From positions 1 to 21,722 of the IMG/VR virus record IMGVR_UViG_3300047508_000079: a stretch of DNA of 21,722 nt, one strand, 5' to 3'. The notes under the pieces are model-generated. The model was not told the origin of the DNA. It saw only the letters and a program-made list of their open reading frames with translations, and did not search any database. This stretch comes from a virus. Positions within the stretch are counted from its first letter, which is position 1. Each line of letters starts with the position of its first letter. Both the position numbers and the translations under genes were made by a program. Shown in pieces: positions 1,334 through 17,034 of this stretch.

Positions 1334-1564
1334 TCATGGCCCGACGTCGATAGCCTCGACGCGGCGCGTGAGGTCGTCGAGCTGATGCTGGATCTCGGTG
1401 TCGGCCTGCGAGCGATCCAGCAGCAGCCGCTGGCCTGCCAGCAACGCGCGCTCAACGCGGCCTAGCCTGGCTTCGACCAACTGAAGCCGGCCGTTCGTTT
1501 GGCGCTGGGTTTCGATCATCCGCTCCATGAGCGTCTGCAGCAATTCCAGGCTGGGCTCTGCCAT
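1334..1564 (-). CDS. 76-residue coiled-coil protein
   Basis: The start is ATG 1564-1562 (MAEPSLELLQTLMERMIETQ), with GGAG 8-11 nt upstream in the message. The product is almost entirely amphipathic helix. Heptad-like Leu, Val and Met spacing runs through residues 5-70, with Arg, Glu and Gln on the polar face, which suggests an oligomeric coiled coil. No membrane segment or catalytic motif is visible. It is the first gene of the four-gene leftward cluster that ends at 726. It lies just downstream, on the same strand, of the CRISPR-like mini-array and a strong hairpin (1578-1607), so it could be read from either side of that structure. No family recognised. Confidence 0.6.
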   Translation of the reverse strand: MAEPSLELLQTLMERMIETQRQTNGRLQLVEARLGRVERALLAGQRLLLDRSQADTEIQHQLDDLTRRVEAIDVGP

Positions 1565-1613: not shown

Positions 1614-1703
1614 TAGGTCATCCCCGCGTCTGCGGGGAACACGTTCGGTAGCTACCCTAGTTCTGCCTGGTCAACGGGTCATCCCCGCGTCTGCGGGGAA
1701 CAC
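1614..1703 (-). CRISPR. Mini-CRISPR array: two type I-E-like repeats, one 32-nt spacer
   Basis: Two identical 27-nt blocks lie at 1616-1642 and 1677-1703, exactly 61 nt apart. Read on the minus strand each begins GTGTTCCCCGCAGACGCGGG and ends GATGACC. Each holds the palindrome CCCCGC-GTCT-GCGGGG. This closely resembles the 29-nt type I-E (E. coli / CASS2 group) repeat consensus. 29 plus 32 gives the 61-nt period expected of that subtype, which makes the spacer 1643-1674. The copy at 1675-1703 continues with CG as in full I-E repeats. The copy at 1614-1642 ends TA instead, as terminal repeats often degenerate. That implies minus-strand orientation with the leader side at 1704 and above. No third repeat occurs 61 nt further on either side, and no cas gene is in the window, so the host's Cas proteins would have to act in trans. 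The spacer has no second match that I can see in this window. Confidence 0.85.
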
Positions 1704-1784
1704 TGTCAGTATACGCCTCCAACCCCGCACGGCATGGCGCCATTCCGCGCATAGTCAGTATGCATGGGGGGACAATTCCACCAG
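1704..1784 (-). promoter_or_regulatory. Leader-side region of the mini-array
   Basis: This non-coding stretch lies upstream of the array in its inferred orientation. On the minus strand the octamer ATACTGAC occurs twice (1705-1712 and 1754-1761), once directly against the first repeat. A weak sigma-70-like pair, TTGTCC and TATGCG with 16 nt between, is present on the minus strand (about 1746-1775). Neither is strong enough to call a promoter with confidence. Confidence 0.25.
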
Positions 1785-1808
1785 GCGCGATAAGGACCGT
1801 TATCGCGC
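1785..1808 (-). terminator. Perfect hairpin at the end of the leftward early operon
   Basis: GCGCGATAA (1785-1793) and TTATCGCGC (1800-1808) form a perfect 9-bp inverted repeat with a 6-nt loop. It begins in the stop codon of the leftward gene 1808-2152. Its position suggests an operon-end hairpin that would separate that operon from the mini-array. No U-run follows, so factor-independent termination is uncertain. A protein-binding palindrome is the alternative. Confidence 0.45.
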
Positions 1809-2152
1809 TAAGCTCGCTTCTTACCCAAATTTTCCAGCAGCTTAGGCGGTTCCACGCCGATAGCCGCCGCAATCTGCCGAAACAGCCCTGTTCGTAGCCA
1901 TGCCGGCATCTGCTCAATGAGCGGTGCTAGCTTCGCGGCCCGCTCCAGGGCGTCAATCGCGTTGTTTGACGTGCCAGACGTCGGCTCGTCGTAGTGCCGC
2001 AGGACGATCGCCGTCAGCAGATCACCCACCGTGACCCGCCCGGCATGGGCCTCGTCGATCAGGCGCTCTCGCAGCCCCTTGGGGAACGCGCGGATCTGCC
2101 ACGGCTCCATCGGCCCCAGGTTCTCGTCCATACGTTTGACCCGTTGTTGCAC
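1808..2152 (-). CDS. Small protein, possible ribbon-helix-helix DNA-binding fold
   Basis: The start is either GTG 2152-2150 (114 residues) or ATG 2131-2129 (MDENLGPMEPWQIRAF, 107 residues). A stop lies two codons above the GTG, and neither start has a clear ribosome site. Residues 16-50 run WQIRAFPKGLRERLIDEA, then a GRVTVGDLL turn and helix. This is the strand-helix-helix order of Arc/MetJ-type regulators. The rest is helical with a basic end (LLENLGKKRA). The gene is the last of the leftward early operon and the protein gene nearest the mini-array. The RHH assignment is a pattern impression, not a firm match. No catalytic residues are apparent. Confidence 0.55.
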   Translation of the reverse strand: MQQRVKRMDENLGPMEPWQIRAFPKGLRERLIDEAHAGRVTVGDLLTAIVLRHYDEPTSGTSNNAIDALERAAKLAPLIEQMPAWLRTGLFRQIAAAIGVEPPKLLENLGKKRA

Positions 2153-3122: not shown

Positions 3123-3595
3123 CGGGATAGGATCCTCAACACAGGGGCGCCGTTGCTCAGTTCCGCACCGCTCACCGGTCCAGCCTTCAGCGCGCGTAGC
3201 AGCTCGGTCTTATCAATCGCGCGTCGCCAATAGACATCGGGAATGGCTTGGGAGTCGGTGACGTGCGCGGACTTCGGCCCAGCGCTGACTGACAGCGTGG
3301 CGAGGCTGCGATCCAGCTTGGCCACACCCAGCGCCTCCATCATCTTCTGCACGATGGCGCGCGCCCGATCCTCACGGGCTTCGATGCGTTTGAGGCGCTC
3401 CTTGCCACGCTCCACCAGCAGCTTGTCGGCCAGCGCGCGTTCGGCGAGGCGGTCGATCAGAGAGAACACATCGGTCTCGCCCTCGATCGTATCTGCGAGC
3501 AACTGCGCGTCTTCGTCGCCGACCAACTCGCGCAGCTTCATGGCCTCGGCCATCGCCTGCTCGATGCGGCGGGGCGATACGGTCACGTCAGCCAT
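3119..3595 (-). CDS. Siphovirus Gp157-family protein
   Basis: The product has about 158 residues. I chose ATG 3595 because it forms a TGATG overlap with the upstream stop and lies 7 nt after GGAGG. A GTG one codon earlier is possible. The sequence opens with acidic helices (ELVGDEDAQLLADTIEGETD), then a long charged helix with ERLKRIEAREDRARAIVQKM. Next comes GVAKLDRSLATLSVSAGPKS, IPDVYWRR and a KTELLRALKAG segment. That order, DTIEGETD then coiled coil then T(L/I)SV then P..(Y/F)...IDK..L...LK.G, is the hallmark of the Gp157 family (Pfam PF05565), usually found beside RecT or single-strand-binding genes. Its biochemical role is not established; a link to recombination or replication is inferred from its neighbours. 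Confidence 0.8.
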   Translation of the reverse strand: MADVTVSPRRIEQAMAEAMKLRELVGDEDAQLLADTIEGETDVFSLIDRLAERALADKLLVERGKERLKRIEAREDRARAIVQKMMEALGVAKLDRSLATLSVSAGPKSAHVTDSQAIPDVYWRRAIDKTELLRALKAGPVSGAELSNGAPVLRILSR

Positions 3596-5273: not shown

Positions 5274-5420
5274 ATGGATCTATCCGACACCTGTCTAGGC
5301 ATCCTGGCCTTCGTGGCGTGGGGGCTCATCGCACTTCCTGTCGGCACGGTGGTGGGCATGGCGATCCATCTTGCCAACCGTGACACGGACGACTCCCCGT
5401 GTCAGTCGCAATGTTGTTGA
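5274..5420 (+). CDS. 48-residue single-pass membrane protein
   Basis: ATG 5274 (MDLSDTCLGILAFVAWGLIA) is preceded by GGAG at 9 nt. Residues 7-33 form one hydrophobic helix. The tail is polar and ends in SQCC. An in-frame ATG at 5235 would add 13 residues but has no ribosome site. It lies between two HTH genes in the rightward early operon. No family recognised; small membrane proteins here sometimes affect superinfection, which is speculation. Confidence 0.5.
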   Translation: MDLSDTCLGILAFVAWGLIALPVGTVVGMAIHLANRDTDDSPCQSQCC

Positions 5421-10947: not shown

Positions 10948-11025
10948 GGTTGGGCGCCAGTCCTGCGGGATTGGCGTCCTTCCCCGGGAAGAAGGATTGG
11001 CGACTCAACACGTTACACGCTACAC

Positions 11026-11112
11026 ATGAAAACCCCGCCCGTGTTGGAAGCACGGACGGGGCTGAACTGGTTCAACTGGCCAAGGGCCAGCGAGATAGGA
11101 GCTATGGAGTAG
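11026..11112 (+). CDS. 28-residue micropeptide frame (tentative)
   Basis: ATG 11026 to TAG 11112 encodes MKTPPVLEARTGLNWFNWPR followed by ASEIGAME. The middle is rich in Trp and Phe, and third codon positions there are mostly G or C. No ribosome site is visible, and the first third lies in the hairpin at 11033-11061. It may be chance. Confidence 0.25.
   Translation: MKTPPVLEARTGLNWFNWPRASEIGAME
11033..11061 (-). terminator. Hairpin with minus-strand U-run
   Basis: CCCCGCCCGTG (11033-11043) pairs with CACGGACGGGG (11051-11061) with one mismatch on the plus strand. On the minus strand that position becomes a G-U pair, and the stem is followed by TTTTC. It therefore looks like a factor-independent terminator for leftward RNA, although no leftward gene is near. 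In rightward RNA it is still an 11-bp hairpin. Confidence 0.45.
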
Positions 11113-11194
11113 CCCCGATTTCGCATGCCCGACGCCTTAACGCAAGAGGCATGCCTTGTTCATCAGTCAACAACCCACCCCTGGCAGGGCCGCC

Positions 11195-11617
11195 ATGACG
11201 GTCGCCCTGTTCGCCCCCGAGCGTGCCTATGCCGCTGCGCTGCGTGCCTACGGCGCTCACGATGCCCTGCGGCTGGCCCTCGCTGTTGCCTGGGGCCGCT
11301 ACGGCGAGGACGACGCCCGCGCTGAGCTGGCCACGACCCTGGCCTGGCACGCCGAGCAGGCCGGCATCCGCACCGTCTCCTGCCGCGCCCTCGCCGCCGC
11401 CATGCTCGAGGAGCAGATCGACATCATCGAGGCACGCCACCGCCGCGTCCTCCAGCAGATGGTCGCCGCCATCGAGGCAGCGCCGACAGCCAACCCCCGC
11501 GACCTGCGGGAAGCAGCCCGCCTCGCCGCTGAAATCTGCAAGGAAAACGGGGCGCCGGCCGACCTCATTGAATCCGCCCTCCGCATCGCGCGCTGGCGCA
11601 CCAGCAAGAGGGCGTAA
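11195..11617 (+). CDS. 140-residue helical protein upstream of the AAA ATPase
   Basis: ATG 11195 (MTVALFAPERAYAAALRAYG) follows CAGGG by 6 nt. A TTG at 11156 could add 13 residues. The product is Ala/Arg/Glu-rich and helical throughout: LRLALAVAWGRYGEDDARAE, then IDIIEARHRRVLQQMVAAIE and DLREAARLAAEICKENG. No motif recognised. It lies 4 bp before the RepA-like ATPase gene, so the two are probably co-translated. A replication accessory role, such as initiator or loader, is inferred from that pairing only. Confidence 0.55.
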   Translation: MTVALFAPERAYAAALRAYGAHDALRLALAVAWGRYGEDDARAELATTLAWHAEQAGIRTVSCRALAAAMLEEQIDIIEARHRRVLQQMVAAIEAAPTANPRDLREAARLAAEICKENGAPADLIESALRIARWRTSKRA

Positions 11618-11621
11618 GGTC

Positions 11622-12857
11622 ATGAGAAACCAGGATTATGATGCCACTGTAGACAAGGTCGTCAGGCTCAACGCCCCGCGTCAGGAGCAGAAAATCAATG
11701 GGAAACTGGTGCTGCGCCCAGCGCGGCTGCCCAACCCAGAAACCCTCCAACCCCGCCAGTGGCTCTATGGCACCCAACTCATCCGGGGCTTCGTCACCGT
11801 CCTTGTGGCCCCAGGCGGCACCGGCAAGTCGGCCTACGCCATGGCGATCGGCGTCTCGCTTGCCGCCCGACGTGCGTTCCTTGGCGACCATATCTTTGCG
11901 CCCGTCAACGTGGCGGTAGTCAACCTAGATGACCCAATGGATGAGTTAGAGCGGCGCGTCGCGGCCGTTATGATCGCTCACCGCATCCGGCGGGAAGATC
12001 TGGACGGCAGGTTGTTCCTCGAGGATTGCGACGGCCACGGCCTCACACTCGCCGCCCCGGCTCGCGACGATAATGGCTTCTACGTAGCCAACCCGGACGA
12101 GGAGGCCCTAACCGAACTCATCAAGGAAAACGGCATCGGCCTGATCGTCTGCGATCCGTTCGCCGAAAGTCACACCCTCGAGGAGAACAGCAACCCGCAG
12201 ATGGTGCAGGCCCTGGCGGTGTGGCGGCGGATCGCCCGCGCCACAAACTGCGCCGTGCTCCTCGTCCACCACGTTCGCAAGGGTGACGCCGCCGGTATCG
12301 ATGCAGCCCGTGGTGCCAAGGCCCTAAGCGACAGCGCGCGCGTCGGCCTGCTCATGACCGTCATGACCGAGGCGGAGGCGGAGCAGTTCGGTATCCAGGA
12401 TGATGACCGGCTTAGCTACGTGCGGCTGGATGACGCCAAGCGCAACATGGCTCCCGCCGCCAAAGCCAGCTGGTTCCATCTCCGCTCGGTCAAGCTCGGC
12501 AACACCTTCGACCCAACCTACCCCAATGGGGACAGCGTCGGCGCCATCGTTCGCTGGCAACCGCCCGACGACGAACTGGCTACCGCACCAAATGTCGAAC
12601 TCAACGCCGCCTTGGACGCCATACGCGACGGCCCAGAGCCCGGTATCCTCTACACCGCGTCCAGGCGAGGGAAGTCCTCCGGTCGATGGTGCGGCCACGT
12701 CCTCTGCCAAATGTTCGACACCAGCGAAAAGCGGGCCGCCAAAATGATCGATGACTGGCTCAAGTCAGGCACCCTCAACGTCACGGAATACCGCCATCCG
12801 AAGTTCCGCAAGAACGTCTCCGGCGTCACCGTCAACGACACCCTGAGGCCATCCTAA
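11622..12857 (+). CDS. RepA-like AAA ATPase / replicative helicase
   Basis: ATG 11622 (MRNQDYDATVDKVVRLNAPR) gives 411 residues. Longer frames upstream run through the previous gene and are shadows. The RecA-fold core has Walker A APGGTGKSAYAMA (Lys69), a strand-Asp pair VAVVNLDDPMDEL, Walker B GLIVCDPFAESH (Asp178) and a LLVHHVRKG switch segment. This is the AAA_25 / RSF1010 RepA layout. The C-terminal 100 residues resemble a winged-helix tail (TSEKRAAKMIDDWLKSGTLN). Such proteins unwind DNA as hexamers at phage or plasmid origins. The cluster of 9-bp repeats just downstream fits an origin. Confidence 0.8.
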   Translation: MRNQDYDATVDKVVRLNAPRQEQKINGKLVLRPARLPNPETLQPRQWLYGTQLIRGFVTVLVAPGGTGKSAYAMAIGVSLAARRAFLGDHIFAPVNVAVVNLDDPMDELERRVAAVMIAHRIRREDLDGRLFLEDCDGHGLTLAAPARDDNGFYVANPDEEALTELIKENGIGLIVCDPFAESHTLEENSNPQMVQALAVWRRIARATNCAVLLVHHVRKGDAAGIDAARGAKALSDSARVGLLMTVMTEAEAEQFGIQDDDRLSYVRLDDAKRNMAPAAKASWFHLRSVKLGNTFDPTYPNGDSVGAIVRWQPPDDELATAPNVELNAALDAIRDGPEPGILYTASRRGKSSGRWCGHVLCQMFDTSEKRAAKMIDDWLKSGTLNVTEYRHPKFRKNVSGVTVNDTLRPS

Positions 12858-13045
12858 TGTGCGCCAATTCACCAGAAACCCCATTTGTTTTGGCGCGCAA
12901 TTGGCGCGGCGGAGGACGGGGTGCGCCAATTAGGGGCCCTAAAGGGCCCCATAAATTAGCGCAGTGCCCTCCGTCCATAGCCGATAAATTAGCGCGAATT
13001 AGCGCAATTGGCGCAAACCCAATTGGCGCAGGAGCCGCACCGTGA
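12857..13045 (+). CDS. Doubtful 62-residue ORF across the repeat region
   Basis: ATG 12857 overlaps the ATPase stop (TAATG) and the frame runs to TGA 13043-13045. The product (MCANSPETPFVLARNWRGGG and on) is Gly/Ala/Pro-rich and irregular. Third-position base use does not match neighbouring genes, and the DNA is full of short repeats and palindromes. It is more likely a non-coding control or origin region that happens to be open. Confidence 0.2.
   Translation: MCANSPETPFVLARNWRGGGRGAPIRGPKGPHKLAQCPPSIADKLARISAIGANPIGAGAAP
12861..13029. repeat. Iteron-like cluster of eight 9-bp repeats (candidate origin)
   Basis: AATTGGCGC or AATTAGCGC occurs in direct orientation at 12899, 12954, 12987, 12997, 13006 and 13021. 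The inverse GCGCCAATT occurs at 12861 and 12923. Three copies at 12987-13014 are nearly head to tail. The cluster is relatively AT-rich for this genome and directly follows the RepA-like helicase gene, as phage and plasmid origins often do. An operator array is the alternative. Confidence 0.6.
12914..12976. repeat. Long imperfect palindrome inside the repeat cluster
   Basis: The core GGGGCCC-TAAA-GGGCCCC (12933-12950) is perfect. The arms extend outward: an inverse repeat copy at 12923 faces a direct copy at 12954, and GGACGG (12914-12919) matches CCGTCC (12971-12976). The structure is cruciform-like and consistent with an origin or a structured RNA. Confidence 0.55.
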
Positions 13046-13209
13046 CCCTGATCATCATCCTCCTCGTGATCCTGCTGCTGTTCGGCGGCGGGGGGTATTA
13101 CGGCTATAACCGTGGCTATTATGCCGGCGGTGGCTTCGGCCTCATCGGCCTGCTGATCGTCGTCCTCCTCGTCGTCGCCCTCTGGGGCGGACGCGGATAC
13201 TGGCCGTGA
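13042..13209 (+). CDS. 55-residue glycine-rich membrane protein
   Basis: GTG 13042 follows AGGAG by 8 nt. The product starts MTLIIILLVILLLFGGGGYY, then GYNRGYYAGGGFGLIGLLIV and VLLVVALWGGRGYWP. Two hydrophobic helices flank a Gly/Tyr-rich loop. Similar tiny proteins are common in Rhizobiales and their phages (DUF3309-like style), with no known function. Its GTG-start ribosome site and its GTGA overlap with the next gene support it as real. Confidence 0.65.
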   Translation: MTLIIILLVILLLFGGGGYYGYNRGYYAGGGFGLIGLLIVVLLVVALWGGRGYWP

Positions 13210-13358
13210 CCCACGACTGGCTGCCCATAGCCGCCCCCAACGGCGAACGCGGCTTCGTCTGCAGCCGCTGCAGGCTCGCCGCCGTTCGCCTGCCGGTTCC
13301 GAAGAGCCTCAAGGATTGCCCCTACAGGCCACTCCGCGCCGATGCTCCCAATGCTTGA
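13206..13358 (+). CDS. 50-residue putative zinc-binding protein
   Basis: GTG 13206 overlaps the previous stop (GTGA). The product begins MTHDWLPIAAPNGERGFVCS and contains CSRC (residues 19-22), then a third Cys near residue 38 (DCPY), with basic residues between. This may be a small metal site, though a fourth ligand is not obvious. It overlaps the start of the NusG-like gene by 17 bp. Function unknown. Confidence 0.5.
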   Translation: MTHDWLPIAAPNGERGFVCSRCRLAAVRLPVPKSLKDCPYRPLRADAPNA

Positions 13359-13953
13359 CACCGCCGCTAACCCAGCGTTAGACACACCCCAACAGGTTGC
13401 GGGCAAAGCCGGCCCCACGCCTAGCGGTAGCCGTCCCCAAGGACCACGCTGGCACGTCGTCGCAACCCACTCCCAAGCCGAACGACGCGCCACCTACAAC
13501 CTCGCCCAGCAGGGCTACGAAACCTACCTCCCGCTCGTCACGGTGCGCCGCCGCGACGCCGCCATCCGCTCGCTCCTCCACCGCGTCGAAGTCCCGCTCT
13601 TCGCTGGGTATGTGTTCGTCCGCTTCGATGCCACGCGCGATCCATGGCGACCCATCACCAACACGCCCGGCGTCTACGCCCTGCTTCGCTCCTCCAGCAC
13701 CGGATTACCCCACCCCTGCCCAGACGCCGCTGTGGACGCGCTGAGAGCAGGCGACGCCCTCCGCCGCACCCTCACCCATCCGGGAGCCGCCTGGGCCGCT
13801 GGAGCCGCCTGCAAAGCCGCGCACGGGCCATTCAAGGGGCATGAGGCCGTGGTGATCTCAGTCACCGGAGCCAAAGCCACCGTCGCACTGCCGCTGTTCG
13901 GCGGATTGCGCGAGATGACCGTGCCAGTCGAATGGCTCACAGCTCGCGAATAG
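13342..13953 (+). CDS. NusG/RfaH-like transcription antitermination protein
   Basis: ATG 13342 or 13351 gives about 200 residues. After a Pro/Gln lead, residues about 36-118 form the NusG N-terminal domain: WHVVATHSQAERRATYNLAQ, GYETYLPLVTVRRRD, VPLFAGYVFVRFD, and ITNTPGVYALL. The end (GPFKGHEAVVISVTGAKATV, then MTVPVEWL) is KOW-like. This order is that of RfaH/NusG paralogues that bind RNA polymerase and suppress pausing or termination. Its place just before the methyltransferase and terminase genes suggests a late-gene antiterminator, the job Q does in lambda. The role is inferred; the family is clear. Confidence 0.8.
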   Translation: MLPMLDTAANPALDTPQQVAGKAGPTPSGSRPQGPRWHVVATHSQAERRATYNLAQQGYETYLPLVTVRRRDAAIRSLLHRVEVPLFAGYVFVRFDATRDPWRPITNTPGVYALLRSSSTGLPHPCPDAAVDALRAGDALRRTLTHPGAAWAAGAACKAAHGPFKGHEAVVISVTGAKATVALPLFGGLREMTVPVEWLTARE

Positions 13954-13968
13954 GTATGCTCTCGGCGC

Positions 13969-15240
13969 ATGGCTAGAACGTTGGAATTCCACCCGAACTT
14001 ATTGGTCAAAACCACTGATATCGTTCCCTATTCGCGCAATGCGAGGGAACATTCTGCAACCCAAATAGCCCAGATCGTTGCATCGATCCGTGAGTTTGGC
14101 TTCACCAATCCGGTTCTTCTCGACGAAAGCAATGTGCTAATCGCAGGGCACGGCCGCCTCGAAGCAGCGCGCTACCTCAACATGCCGCAATTGCCCGCGC
14201 TCATGCTGCCCGGCCTCAGCGATGCACAGAAAGCCGCGCTCCGCATCGCCGACAACAAGCTGGCACTCAACGCCACCTGGGACGACGACCTGCTGCGCAC
14301 CGAACTCGCCGACCTGCGCGACGTGGGCTTCGACCTGTCGTTGACGGGCTTCGGTGACGAGGAACTCGGCGCGCTGTTCGCCGACCGCACCGATGGCCTC
14401 ACCGATCCAGACGACGTGCCGGAACCGCCGGCCGAACCCATTACGCAACTCGGCGACGTGTGGCTGCTCGGACGCCATCGGCTGGTGTGCGGCGATGCAA
14501 CGAGCGAGGCTGACGTGTCGCTGGCGCTGGATGGCGTGAAGCCGCACCTCATGGTTACGGATCCGCCGTATGGGGTGGATTACGACCCGGACTGGCGCAA
14601 CGACGCGTTGCAGGCCGGCGTCGGGGCACGTGGCGCTCCAGGTGGTCGGGCGGTCGGTCGCGTCACCAACGATGAGCGTGCTGATTGGACGGATGCTTGG
14701 GCGTTGTCACCGTCCGACGTAGCCTATGTCTGGCATGGCGCGCTGCATATGACGACGGTGCTCGATAGCCTGCGGTCTGCTACATATGAGCCTCGTTCGT
14801 TGATCATATGGGCAAAGCAGCAGTTCGTCATTTCGCGCGGTCACTATCACAACCAGCATGAGCCTTGCTGGTATGCTGTGCGCAACGGCAAGACGGCACA
14901 CTGGGCCGGAGACCGAAGCCAGACCACGCTGTGGCAGATCGACAAGCCGCACAAGTCCGAAACCGGCCACAGCACCCAAAAGCCAGTCGAGTGCATGAAG
15001 CGCCCGATCGAGAACAACAGCAGCCCAGGCCAAGCCGTCTACGACCCGTTCGTCGGCTCCGGCACCACCATCATTGCCGCCGAAATGACCGGGCGCACGG
15101 CGCATTGTATCGAGATTAGCCCCACGTATTGCGATACCTCGATCATCAGGTGGCAGAACTTCACAGGACAGCAGGCAACCACTCCCGATGGGATTCCATA
15201 CCAAGAACATGCACACCGGGAAGCTGTTCCGGCCAACTGA
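13969..15240 (+). CDS. DNA methyltransferase with N-terminal ParB-like domain
   Basis: ATG 13969 gives 423 residues. Residues 15-95 are ParB/Srx-like: VPYSRNAREHSATQIAQIVA, SIREFGFTNPVLLDE, VLIAGHGRLEAARYL. Residues about 165-405 are an N6-adenine/N4-cytosine methyltransferase with DPPYGVDY (Asp198 to Tyr201) before the SAM-binding DPFVGSGTT (Phe361). That is the beta-class order, and the DPPY motif fits amino-group methylation. This fusion is common in prophages of Alphaproteobacteria. No restriction partner is adjacent, so it is likely an orphan enzyme that protects the phage or marks DNA. Its target sequence cannot be read from the protein. Confidence 0.85.
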   Translation: MARTLEFHPNLLVKTTDIVPYSRNAREHSATQIAQIVASIREFGFTNPVLLDESNVLIAGHGRLEAARYLNMPQLPALMLPGLSDAQKAALRIADNKLALNATWDDDLLRTELADLRDVGFDLSLTGFGDEELGALFADRTDGLTDPDDVPEPPAEPITQLGDVWLLGRHRLVCGDATSEADVSLALDGVKPHLMVTDPPYGVDYDPDWRNDALQAGVGARGAPGGRAVGRVTNDERADWTDAWALSPSDVAYVWHGALHMTTVLDSLRSATYEPRSLIIWAKQQFVISRGHYHNQHEPCWYAVRNGKTAHWAGDRSQTTLWQIDKPHKSETGHSTQKPVECMKRPIENNSSPGQAVYDPFVGSGTTIIAAEMTGRTAHCIEISPTYCDTSIIRWQNFTGQQATTPDGIPYQEHAHREAVPAN

Positions 15241-15610
15241 CGATCAGCGCCGCCAGGTCCTCACCATGACCGGATTCGGCATCCGCCAGGACGAGATCGC
15301 CATGGCGCTGATGATCGACAAGAAGACGCTGCACAAGCACTTCCGCCGCGAACTCGATACCGGCATGACCGAGGCCAACGTCCGCGTCGCCCAGGCGCTC
15401 TATACCAACGCCACCAAGCACATGAACGTGGCCGCGCAAATCTGGTGGACCAAGGTCCGCATGGGCTGGAAGTCATACGAATCGCTCGACGTCACCACCA
15501 ACCAGCCGTTCGCCATATTCGTGCCCACCCCCATCACCAACACCGCAGAATGGCTCGCTCATCACGCCCCCGCGCAGCTCGACCACGATCCGACGACGAC
15601 GGAGGAGTAG
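15209..15610 (+). CDS. terS: Small terminase subunit-like HTH protein
   Basis: ATG 15209 (MHTGKLFRPTDDQRRQVLTM) gives 133 residues. ATG 15188 would add seven. Both overlap the methyltransferase end. Residues 8-50 contain a helix-turn-helix (MTGFGIRQDEIAMALMIDKK, TLHKHFRRELDTG). The NVRVAQALYTNATKHMNVAA and WWTKVRMGWK segments follow. This pattern is typical of proteins encoded just before the large terminase in phages of Alphaproteobacteria, which recognise the packaging site. The C-terminus is acidic. The large-subunit gene begins inside it. Assignment rests on family style and position. Confidence 0.65.
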   Translation: MHTGKLFRPTDDQRRQVLTMTGFGIRQDEIAMALMIDKKTLHKHFRRELDTGMTEANVRVAQALYTNATKHMNVAAQIWWTKVRMGWKSYESLDVTTNQPFAIFVPTPITNTAEWLAHHAPAQLDHDPTTTEE

Positions 15611-17034
15611 CTGCACTCCTCAAGCCGCCTAAGGTCGCCTCGGCCTGGACGCCGCAGGCCGGGCCACAGCGCTCGTTCTGCGACTGCCCTGTGTTCGAGG
15701 TATTCTTCGGCGGGGCGCGCGGTGGAGGGAAGTCCGACGCAGTCCTCGGCGAGTGGGCGGCACACGCACAGCAGCACGGCGCCAATGCGATCGGCCTCAT
15801 GGTGCGACGCTCGCGGACGGAACTGCTGGAGTTGTTCGAGCGCGGCCGGGTGATCTACAGCAAGGTCAACGCGCAATTCACCGTCAACCCGATGCGCGTG
15901 CTCATGCCGAACGGCGCACGCCTGACGTTCGCCTATCTGGAGCGGGATGCGGACGCCGAGGTCTACCAGGGAGCGAGCTACACGCGGGTCTACGTCGAGG
16001 AGGCCGGCAACTTCCCCTCGCCGTCGCCGATCATGAAGCTGATGGCGACGCTGCGGTCAGGCTCTGGTGTGCCGGTTGGCATCAGGCTCACTGGCAACCC
16101 TGGCGGGCCTGGGCACCAATGGCTACGCGCCCGCTACATCGATCCAGCGCCACAGGGATGGAAGGTGCTGCGCGATCCTACGGGGCTGGAGCGCATCTAC
16201 ATCCCGAGCCGGGTGAGCGACAACAGCTACCTTGGCCCAGACTACGTGCAGCGACTTCGCGCATCCGGTTCACCTGAGCTAGTGCGCGCTTGGCTGGAGG
16301 GCGACTGGTCGGTCGTTAGTGGCGCTTTCTTCCCCGAATTCACCATGGACCGCCACGTCATCGCCCCCTTCACCATCCCAACGCACTGGCCGCGCTTCCG
16401 CTCGTTCGACTGGGGATCGGCTCGGCCATTCGCATGCCATTGGTGGGCGGTGAGCGACGGCAGCATCCACAGCATCGCACGCGGCGCGCTCGTGAACTAT
16501 CGCGAGTGGTATGGCATGAAGCCGGGCGAACCTAACGTCGGGCTGCGCATGACCGCCGAAGCCATCGCCGCCGGCATCCGTGATCGCGAGCAGGACGACC
16601 CATTGCCGATGATCGGTGTCGCCGATCCAGCGATGTTCGCAGAGGACGGCGGGCCTAGCATTGCACAGCGCATGATCGGTAGCGGCATCGTCTTCCGGCC
16701 GGCGGACAACAAGCGTGTCGCAGGGCGCGGTGCCATGGGCGGCTGGGACCAACTGCGCCAACGCCTCACAGGTGATGCAGACGAGAGACCGATGCTGCTT
16801 TTCTTCGCCACGTCCCGTGACATCATCCGCACGCTGCCGGCGCTGCAGCACGACGACGCACGGCCAGAGGACGTCGACAGCGACATGGAAGACCACGCAC
16901 CTGATAGCGTGCGCTATGCGTGCATGAGCCGGCCGATGGTGCTTGATCTGGAGAAGCCGAAGCCCAAGGACACCTGGGCCGATGCCTTCAACCGCGCGAG
17001 TCGTGAGCCGGTGGAAGACTGGAGGGTCGCGTGA
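15550..17034 (+). CDS. terL: Large terminase subunit
   Basis: ATG 15550 is the last start in frame before the conserved core and gives 494 residues. It overlaps terS by 61 bp. The ATPase domain has Walker A FFGGARGGGKSDAVLGEW (Lys61) and Walker B RVYVEEAGN (Glu150-Glu151). The nuclease domain has FRSFDWGSARPFACHWW (Asp287), GVADPAMF (Asp359) and MEDHAPDSVRYA (Asp452), the acidic triad of RNase H-like terminase nucleases. This is the motor that cuts and packages phage DNA into the prohead through the portal. The portal gene is 3.4 kb downstream, with small genes and lysis genes between. Confidence 0.9.
   Translation: MARSSRPRAARPRSDDDGGVAALLKPPKVASAWTPQAGPQRSFCDCPVFEVFFGGARGGGKSDAVLGEWAAHAQQHGANAIGLMVRRSRTELLELFERGRVIYSKVNAQFTVNPMRVLMPNGARLTFAYLERDADAEVYQGASYTRVYVEEAGNFPSPSPIMKLMATLRSGSGVPVGIRLTGNPGGPGHQWLRARYIDPAPQGWKVLRDPTGLERIYIPSRVSDNSYLGPDYVQRLRASGSPELVRAWLEGDWSVVSGAFFPEFTMDRHVIAPFTIPTHWPRFRSFDWGSARPFACHWWAVSDGSIHSIARGALVNYREWYGMKPGEPNVGLRMTAEAIAAGIRDREQDDPLPMIGVADPAMFAEDGGPSIAQRMIGSGIVFRPADNKRVAGRGAMGGWDQLRQRLTGDADERPMLLFFATSRDIIRTLPALQHDDARPEDVDSDMEDHAPDSVRYACMSRPMVLDLEKPKPKDTWADAFNRASREPVEDWRVA

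Follow-up and report, generated by a model that had tools for sequence, protein, structure and literature searches.

A two-repeat type I-E array in a tailed phage

What a phage could do with two CRISPR repeats, a single spacer and no cas genes of its own is the question raised by a short locus in a soil phage, whose IMG/VR virus record (21,722 bases) is analysed here at its full length (hereafter, the window). The window encodes a terminase large subunit, a P22-like portal fragment, a DNA ejection protein, RecT, a Gam-like protein and a NusG-like antiterminator, and these genes mark it as a fragment of a P22-like tailed phage genome. No cas or defence genes were detected among the tested genes of this 21.7-kb fragment, and Cas7e was found neither in the window phage nor in the sibling phages tested (described below).

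Two type I-E repeats and one 32-nt spacer, with a period of exactly 61 nt, occupy positions 1703-1614 of the minus strand. Read along that strand, the locus comprises:

1808-2152, minus strand: phage gene upstream of the array, with a homologue in another phage (L082), 54% identical
1713-1708, minus strand: TATACT, a -10-like box of a putative promoter, with the predicted transcription start near the first base of repeat 1
1703-1675, minus strand: repeat 1 (promoter-proximal), GTGTTCCCCGCAGACGCGGGGATGACCCG, 29 nt, folds as a 7-bp I-E hairpin
1674-1643, minus strand: spacer, TTGACCAGGCAGAACTAGGGTAGCTACCGAAC, 32 nt
1642-1614, minus strand: repeat 2 (terminal, leader-distal), GTGTTCCCCGCAGACGCGGGGATGACCTA, 29 nt, folds as a 7-bp I-E hairpin
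1608-1577, minus strand: strong G+C hairpin immediately 3' of the array, with a stem of 13 bp, dG -33.8 kcal/mol, z -4.8
1334-1564, minus strand: phage gene downstream of the array, an open reading frame for a small coiled-coil-like protein

Each repeat consists of GTGTTCCCCGCAGACGCGGGGATGACC followed by CG (repeat 1) or TA (repeat 2). As the initial annotation had reported, identical 27-nt blocks (GGTCATCCCCGCGTCTGCGGGGAACAC, at 1616-1642 and 1677-1703) are spaced exactly 61 nt apart and enclose one 32-nt spacer at 1643-1674. The array is read on the minus strand. The degenerate end that it noted at 1614 corresponds to the final two bases of the leader-distal repeat; repeat 2 is degenerate in these two bases alone, and both lie outside the predicted crRNA. 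By analogy with known type I-E systems, the last 8 nt of repeat 1 (AUGACCCG) would form the crRNA 5' handle.

A 20-nt core of the repeat occurs at only two sites across the window with up to three mismatches permitted, and is absent from all 100 dinucleotide shuffles of the window. The repeats have the features of type I-E repeats (28-29 nt, a CCCCGC-N4-GCGGGG hairpin, and the ends GTGTTC/GATGA-CCG), and the array has the two to three repeats and one to two spacers of constant canonical length that define a mini-array. Rfam gave no match. The I-E geometry, the hairpins and the lack of detected cas genes support the earlier description of a Cas-less type I-E mini-array in a phage.

The array lies in a minus-strand gene run

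The array sits in the gap between the genes at 1808-2152 and 1334-1564 and is co-directional with both. Homologues of the downstream gene, 60-67% identical, are found near the terminase in related phages. The initial annotation had placed the array between two phage operons without cas genes. The absence of cas genes stands, but the operon arrangement does not: both flanking genes are on the minus strand, and the array is thus within a minus-strand gene run and not between divergent operons.

No -35 consensus accompanies the TATACT box of the window array, and a promoter scan gave no full sigma-70 site. The hairpin at 1608-1577, which lacks a clear T run, probably serves as a terminator or marks the 3' end; a strong hairpin is also found immediately 3' of several other phage mini-arrays. 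With the TATACT box directly upstream and the 13-bp hairpin directly downstream, the array looks like a complete, leaderless unit.

A motif, TACTGACA, is present near the arrays of the window (1705-1761) and of two other phages, L198/G433 (3577-3595) and L083 (3453-3470). In G433 and L083 it is part of a longer common promoter-like stretch, TTATTGACGG ... CTACTGACA-CATACTGACATT. It has the look of a phage promoter element, yet it is not enriched in the window or in the fetched phage set, and we did not retain it as one.

Terminase relatives of the window phage were found in 125 IMG/VR contigs, and its relatives are about 40 kb long. The mini-array is not present in 22 larger relatives with the same terminase, and neither the repeat nor the gene pair that flanks the array in the window occurs in any of the larger relatives. 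This absence from close terminase relatives is as expected for an accessory element.

Sibling phages with near-identical repeats target each other

Exact repeat scans found no match in the viral and genome collections, and the repeat pattern was therefore relaxed. A repeat-pair scan of 2.9 million viral contigs detected I-E mini-arrays in 36 contigs. The nearest by repeat are the phages G433/G434 (L198/L199) and G444/G448 (L222/L228), which carry GTGTTCCCCGCAGGCGCGGGGATGACCCG. This repeat is one loop base off that of the window and likewise ends in GACCCG, an ending thus common to the window, G433 and G448. In L198 and L222, too, a TATAC box similar to that of the window stands directly in front of the repeats. 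The terminase of the window is absent from the sibling mini-array phages. About half of the G433 and G448 genomes align with each other, at 80% identity, and their arrays have the upstream flank CCGGTTGGAGTATATACGAAG in common while their spacers are different, which indicates that spacers turn over at one locus.

Spacer 2 of G433 is a perfect match to the start of the major capsid gene of G448, with an ATG PAM, and the copy of this target in G433 itself is four bases off the spacer. Conversely, spacer 1 of G448 has a perfect match in G433, also with an ATG PAM. Spacer 1 of G433 matches the NusG-like antiterminator gene of a further phage (G005) with one mismatch and an AAG PAM; its site in G448 has four mismatches. 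The terminase of G005 is 81% identical to that of the window and belongs to the same terminase family. Shuffled spacers gave 0.6 matches per set at up to six mismatches, none with AAG or ATG. Judged by these sequence matches, G433 and G448 target each other reciprocally, with I-E PAMs and with avoidance of self. Given that the terminase family of the window is among the sibling targets, a common host is probable for these phages, in which the window phage, its terminase family and G433/G448 appear to trade CRISPR attacks via the host Cascade.

The survey also detected several other phage arrays. G444/G448 have a second mini-array on the opposite strand (L222, minus strand, ~3685) with slightly degenerate repeats, and the spacer of this array in G448 differs at five positions from a G433 site that has an AAG PAM. 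A spacer of L195 (G430, at 5392) and one of L213 (G440, minus strand, 13296) match the genomes of their own carriers with eight and six mismatches, respectively, each with an AAG PAM, as if each had been acquired from the corresponding sequence of a relative. Perfect or near-perfect spacer matches within the same contig were found in L206 (minus strand, 1844 and 2215) and in L201, L203, L205, L208 and L209, where ACG or TGA occupies the place of the I-E PAM. One further contig (L261, IMGVR_UViG_3300049218_000129) has a one-spacer array at ~547-640, ATGTTCCCCGCACACGCGGGGATGACCCA, with a degenerate terminal repeat. Saccharomonospora phage PIS 136 (L129, JX006077.1, region 11000-17000) has two arrays, each with four I-E-like repeats (ATCCGCCCCGC...GCGGGGATGAACC, 61 nt apart; record positions 12845-13049 and 15685-15889), with 32-nt spacers in the one array examined closely. 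These arrays have no CRISPR annotation in the part of JX006077.1 consulted, and a literature search found no paper on them. An unannotated 2,652-base 'Salmonella phage' record, OR851156.1, matches the window array at 73% and may be a host CRISPR array deposited under a phage name.

Acetobacteraceae are the likely hosts

The closest terminase relatives in bacterial genomes are those of Rhodovarius lipocyclicus (72%) and of an Acetobacteraceae metagenome-assembled genome (70%), and on this basis Acetobacteraceae are the likely hosts. Repeats within three mismatches of the window repeat were found in 31 of 397 Acetobacteraceae genomes. They include GTGTTCCCCGCAGACGCGGGGATGAACCG, which is one base off the window repeat, and GTGTTCCCCGCAGGCGCGGGGATGTCCCG. 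Cas7e (PF09344) was detected in 10 of the 11 tested genomes with such arrays. The comparison with host arrays that the initial annotation proposed gives a divided answer. The exact 26-nt repeat core was detected in none of 84,980 species genomes, so the absence of any host with a matching repeat, which the annotation held to count against a true array, applies in its strict form, while the nearest Acetobacteraceae repeats differ by a single base.

The window and host arrays differ in two respects. Repeat position 26 is C in the window and A, T or G in nearly all sampled host arrays; a repeat ending in GACCCG was found in one host genome (G307), and all other listed host repeats differ. In addition, repeat 1 of the Acetobacteraceae arrays is immediately preceded by a conserved leader, GGTAGATCTTTGACA ... 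GGAAGA, of which nothing is present in the phage unit. We also compared ~330 Acetobacteraceae array spacers with the window and its relatives, and the best match had seven mismatches, about chance level.

A probable guide for the host Cascade

The window array is probably a guide for the host Cascade against competing phages. The initial annotation had offered two functions, the borrowing of host Cascade or a decoy crRNA. The former is clearly favoured because siblings with nearly the same repeat target each other and the terminase family of the window, with AAG or ATG PAMs; no specific support was found for the latter. This argument extends to the window because its repeat is one loop base from that of the siblings, has the same handle and is probably used in the same host.

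In type I-E systems, Cas6e cleaves after each repeat hairpin. The array is a minimal, leaderless I-E mini-CRISPR carried as an accessory unit of a P22-like phage, from which a phage promoter would produce a short RNA extending from repeat 1 to the hairpin after repeat 2. Cleavage of both repeat hairpins by host Cas6e would then release one 61-nt crRNA that, by analogy, would consist of the 8-nt handle, the 32-nt guide and a 21-nt hairpin (GUGUUCCCCGCAGACGCGGGG). Loaded with this crRNA, the host Cascade and Cas3 would destroy a competing phage with a matching protospacer, resulting in heterotypic superinfection exclusion.

A tentative extension, to which we give only a small chance, is that the GACCCG repeats form a phage-specific lineage (the host ending being GAACCG) in a transferable unit passed between unrelated phages of one host. 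Such a unit would comprise its own -10 box, the repeats and the terminator hairpin. If this is true, guides of phage origin would be recognisable by the GACCCG handle, which would also prevent recombination of the unit with host arrays.

Solitary phage repeats have been described as RNA anti-CRISPRs (Racrs), also against type I-E, and I-E systems can be inhibited by phage-borne repeats of this type that lie behind a promoter (PMC10651486). Like a Racr, the window has a host-like repeat hairpin behind a putative phage promoter, and the C at handle base 26 is unlike nearly all sampled host arrays. The repeat RNA could accordingly act as a decoy that occupies host Cas6e/Cas7e or forms an unproductive Cascade and shields the phage. 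We consider this unlikely, as Racrs are described as solitary repeats without a functional spacer-repeat pair and the window has two full repeats and an intact spacer of canonical length (32 nt). Moreover, the spacers of the sibling GACCCG arrays have PAM-flanked matches in rival phages and spare the carrier, suggesting that the handle is compatible with targeting. Exchange of spacers at the sibling locus and the GACCCG-ending repeat of host genome G307 also argue against a decoy.

It is quite improbable that the array is a relic without function that was once part of a host array, was gained by recombination and is now decaying. The degenerate last two bases of repeat 2, the lack of a leader and the lack of a known target are consistent with decay. 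However, only bases outside the crRNA have decayed, the two 27-nt blocks remain identical, and the unit is bracketed by a -10-like box and a strong hairpin. The missing host leader indicates that the unit is not a simple copy of the end of a host array, and many phages keep such units.

Searches for the target of the spacer

The guide reading predicts a protospacer, and the initial annotation had proposed a search of phages and plasmids with PAM analysis. This search found no target in the collections tried. In the fetched phage sequences, ~2.7 Mb in all (5.5 Mb on both strands), the window spacer matched no target, and blastn against GenBank phages and plasmids gave matches of 17-20 nt at best (E 3 or worse). 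No target was found in IMG/VR with the patterns tried (flipped positions free, or the PAM-proximal part); the PAM-proximal search gave two matches, with 9 and 11 mismatches over the full spacer. One of these two, in a virus (L230), has 22 identical nt in the seed part, but the PAM is CAA and the virus has no detectable gene in common with the window or sibling phages, and we thus treated the match as chance. No full-length match was found in the 397 Acetobacteraceae genomes at up to three mismatches with flipped positions free. This last result and the sibling spacers, which match phages instead, make it very improbable that the array is a regulatory guide whose partly complementary crRNA makes Cascade repress a host promoter, such as that of the cas operon, even if the same anatomy would serve for this and no spacer target was found.

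Relation to known virus-borne mini-arrays

The window element belongs to a known kind, the virus-borne mini-array. The mini-CRISPR arrays of SPV1 and SPV2 mediate reciprocal targeting between related viruses (Medvedeva et al. 2019, PMC6858448). The window array, with its single spacer, falls within their range of one to two spacers and likewise has no cas genes, and the sibling phages have spacers aimed at each other, with the carrier's own orthologue mutated so as to escape self-targeting. Unlike SPV1 and SPV2, which are archaeal, non-lytic and have host-like leaders, the window is a tailed bacterial phage with a type I-E array, no host leader and no target found for its spacer. Leaderless phage mini-arrays that hit neighbouring genes of close relatives and not of the carrier are also known (PMC6858448 discussion, PMC11656645), and the window array resembles them in being Cas-less and leaderless with few spacers. 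According to PMC11656645, the repeats of such arrays are identical to those of the host, whereas the nearest host repeat found for the window is one base off. Some huge phages have arrays whose repeats resemble those of the host and whose spacers are directed at core genes of other phages, and they may use host Cas proteins (PMC7162821), as we propose for the window array. Their genomes exceed 200 kb with a median of six repeats, compared with two repeats in the window and relatives of ~40 kb.

The features that may be new are the network of tailed phages that surrounds the window element and a GACCCG ending that is shared by these phages and rare in the sampled hosts. Reciprocal viral CRISPR targeting is documented in archaeal viruses; for tailed bacterial phages, we found few described cases with intact PAMs, self-avoidance and spacer turnover. 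Phage-phage warfare by means of borrowed immunity would be directly testable in Acetobacteraceae or in a surrogate I-E host.
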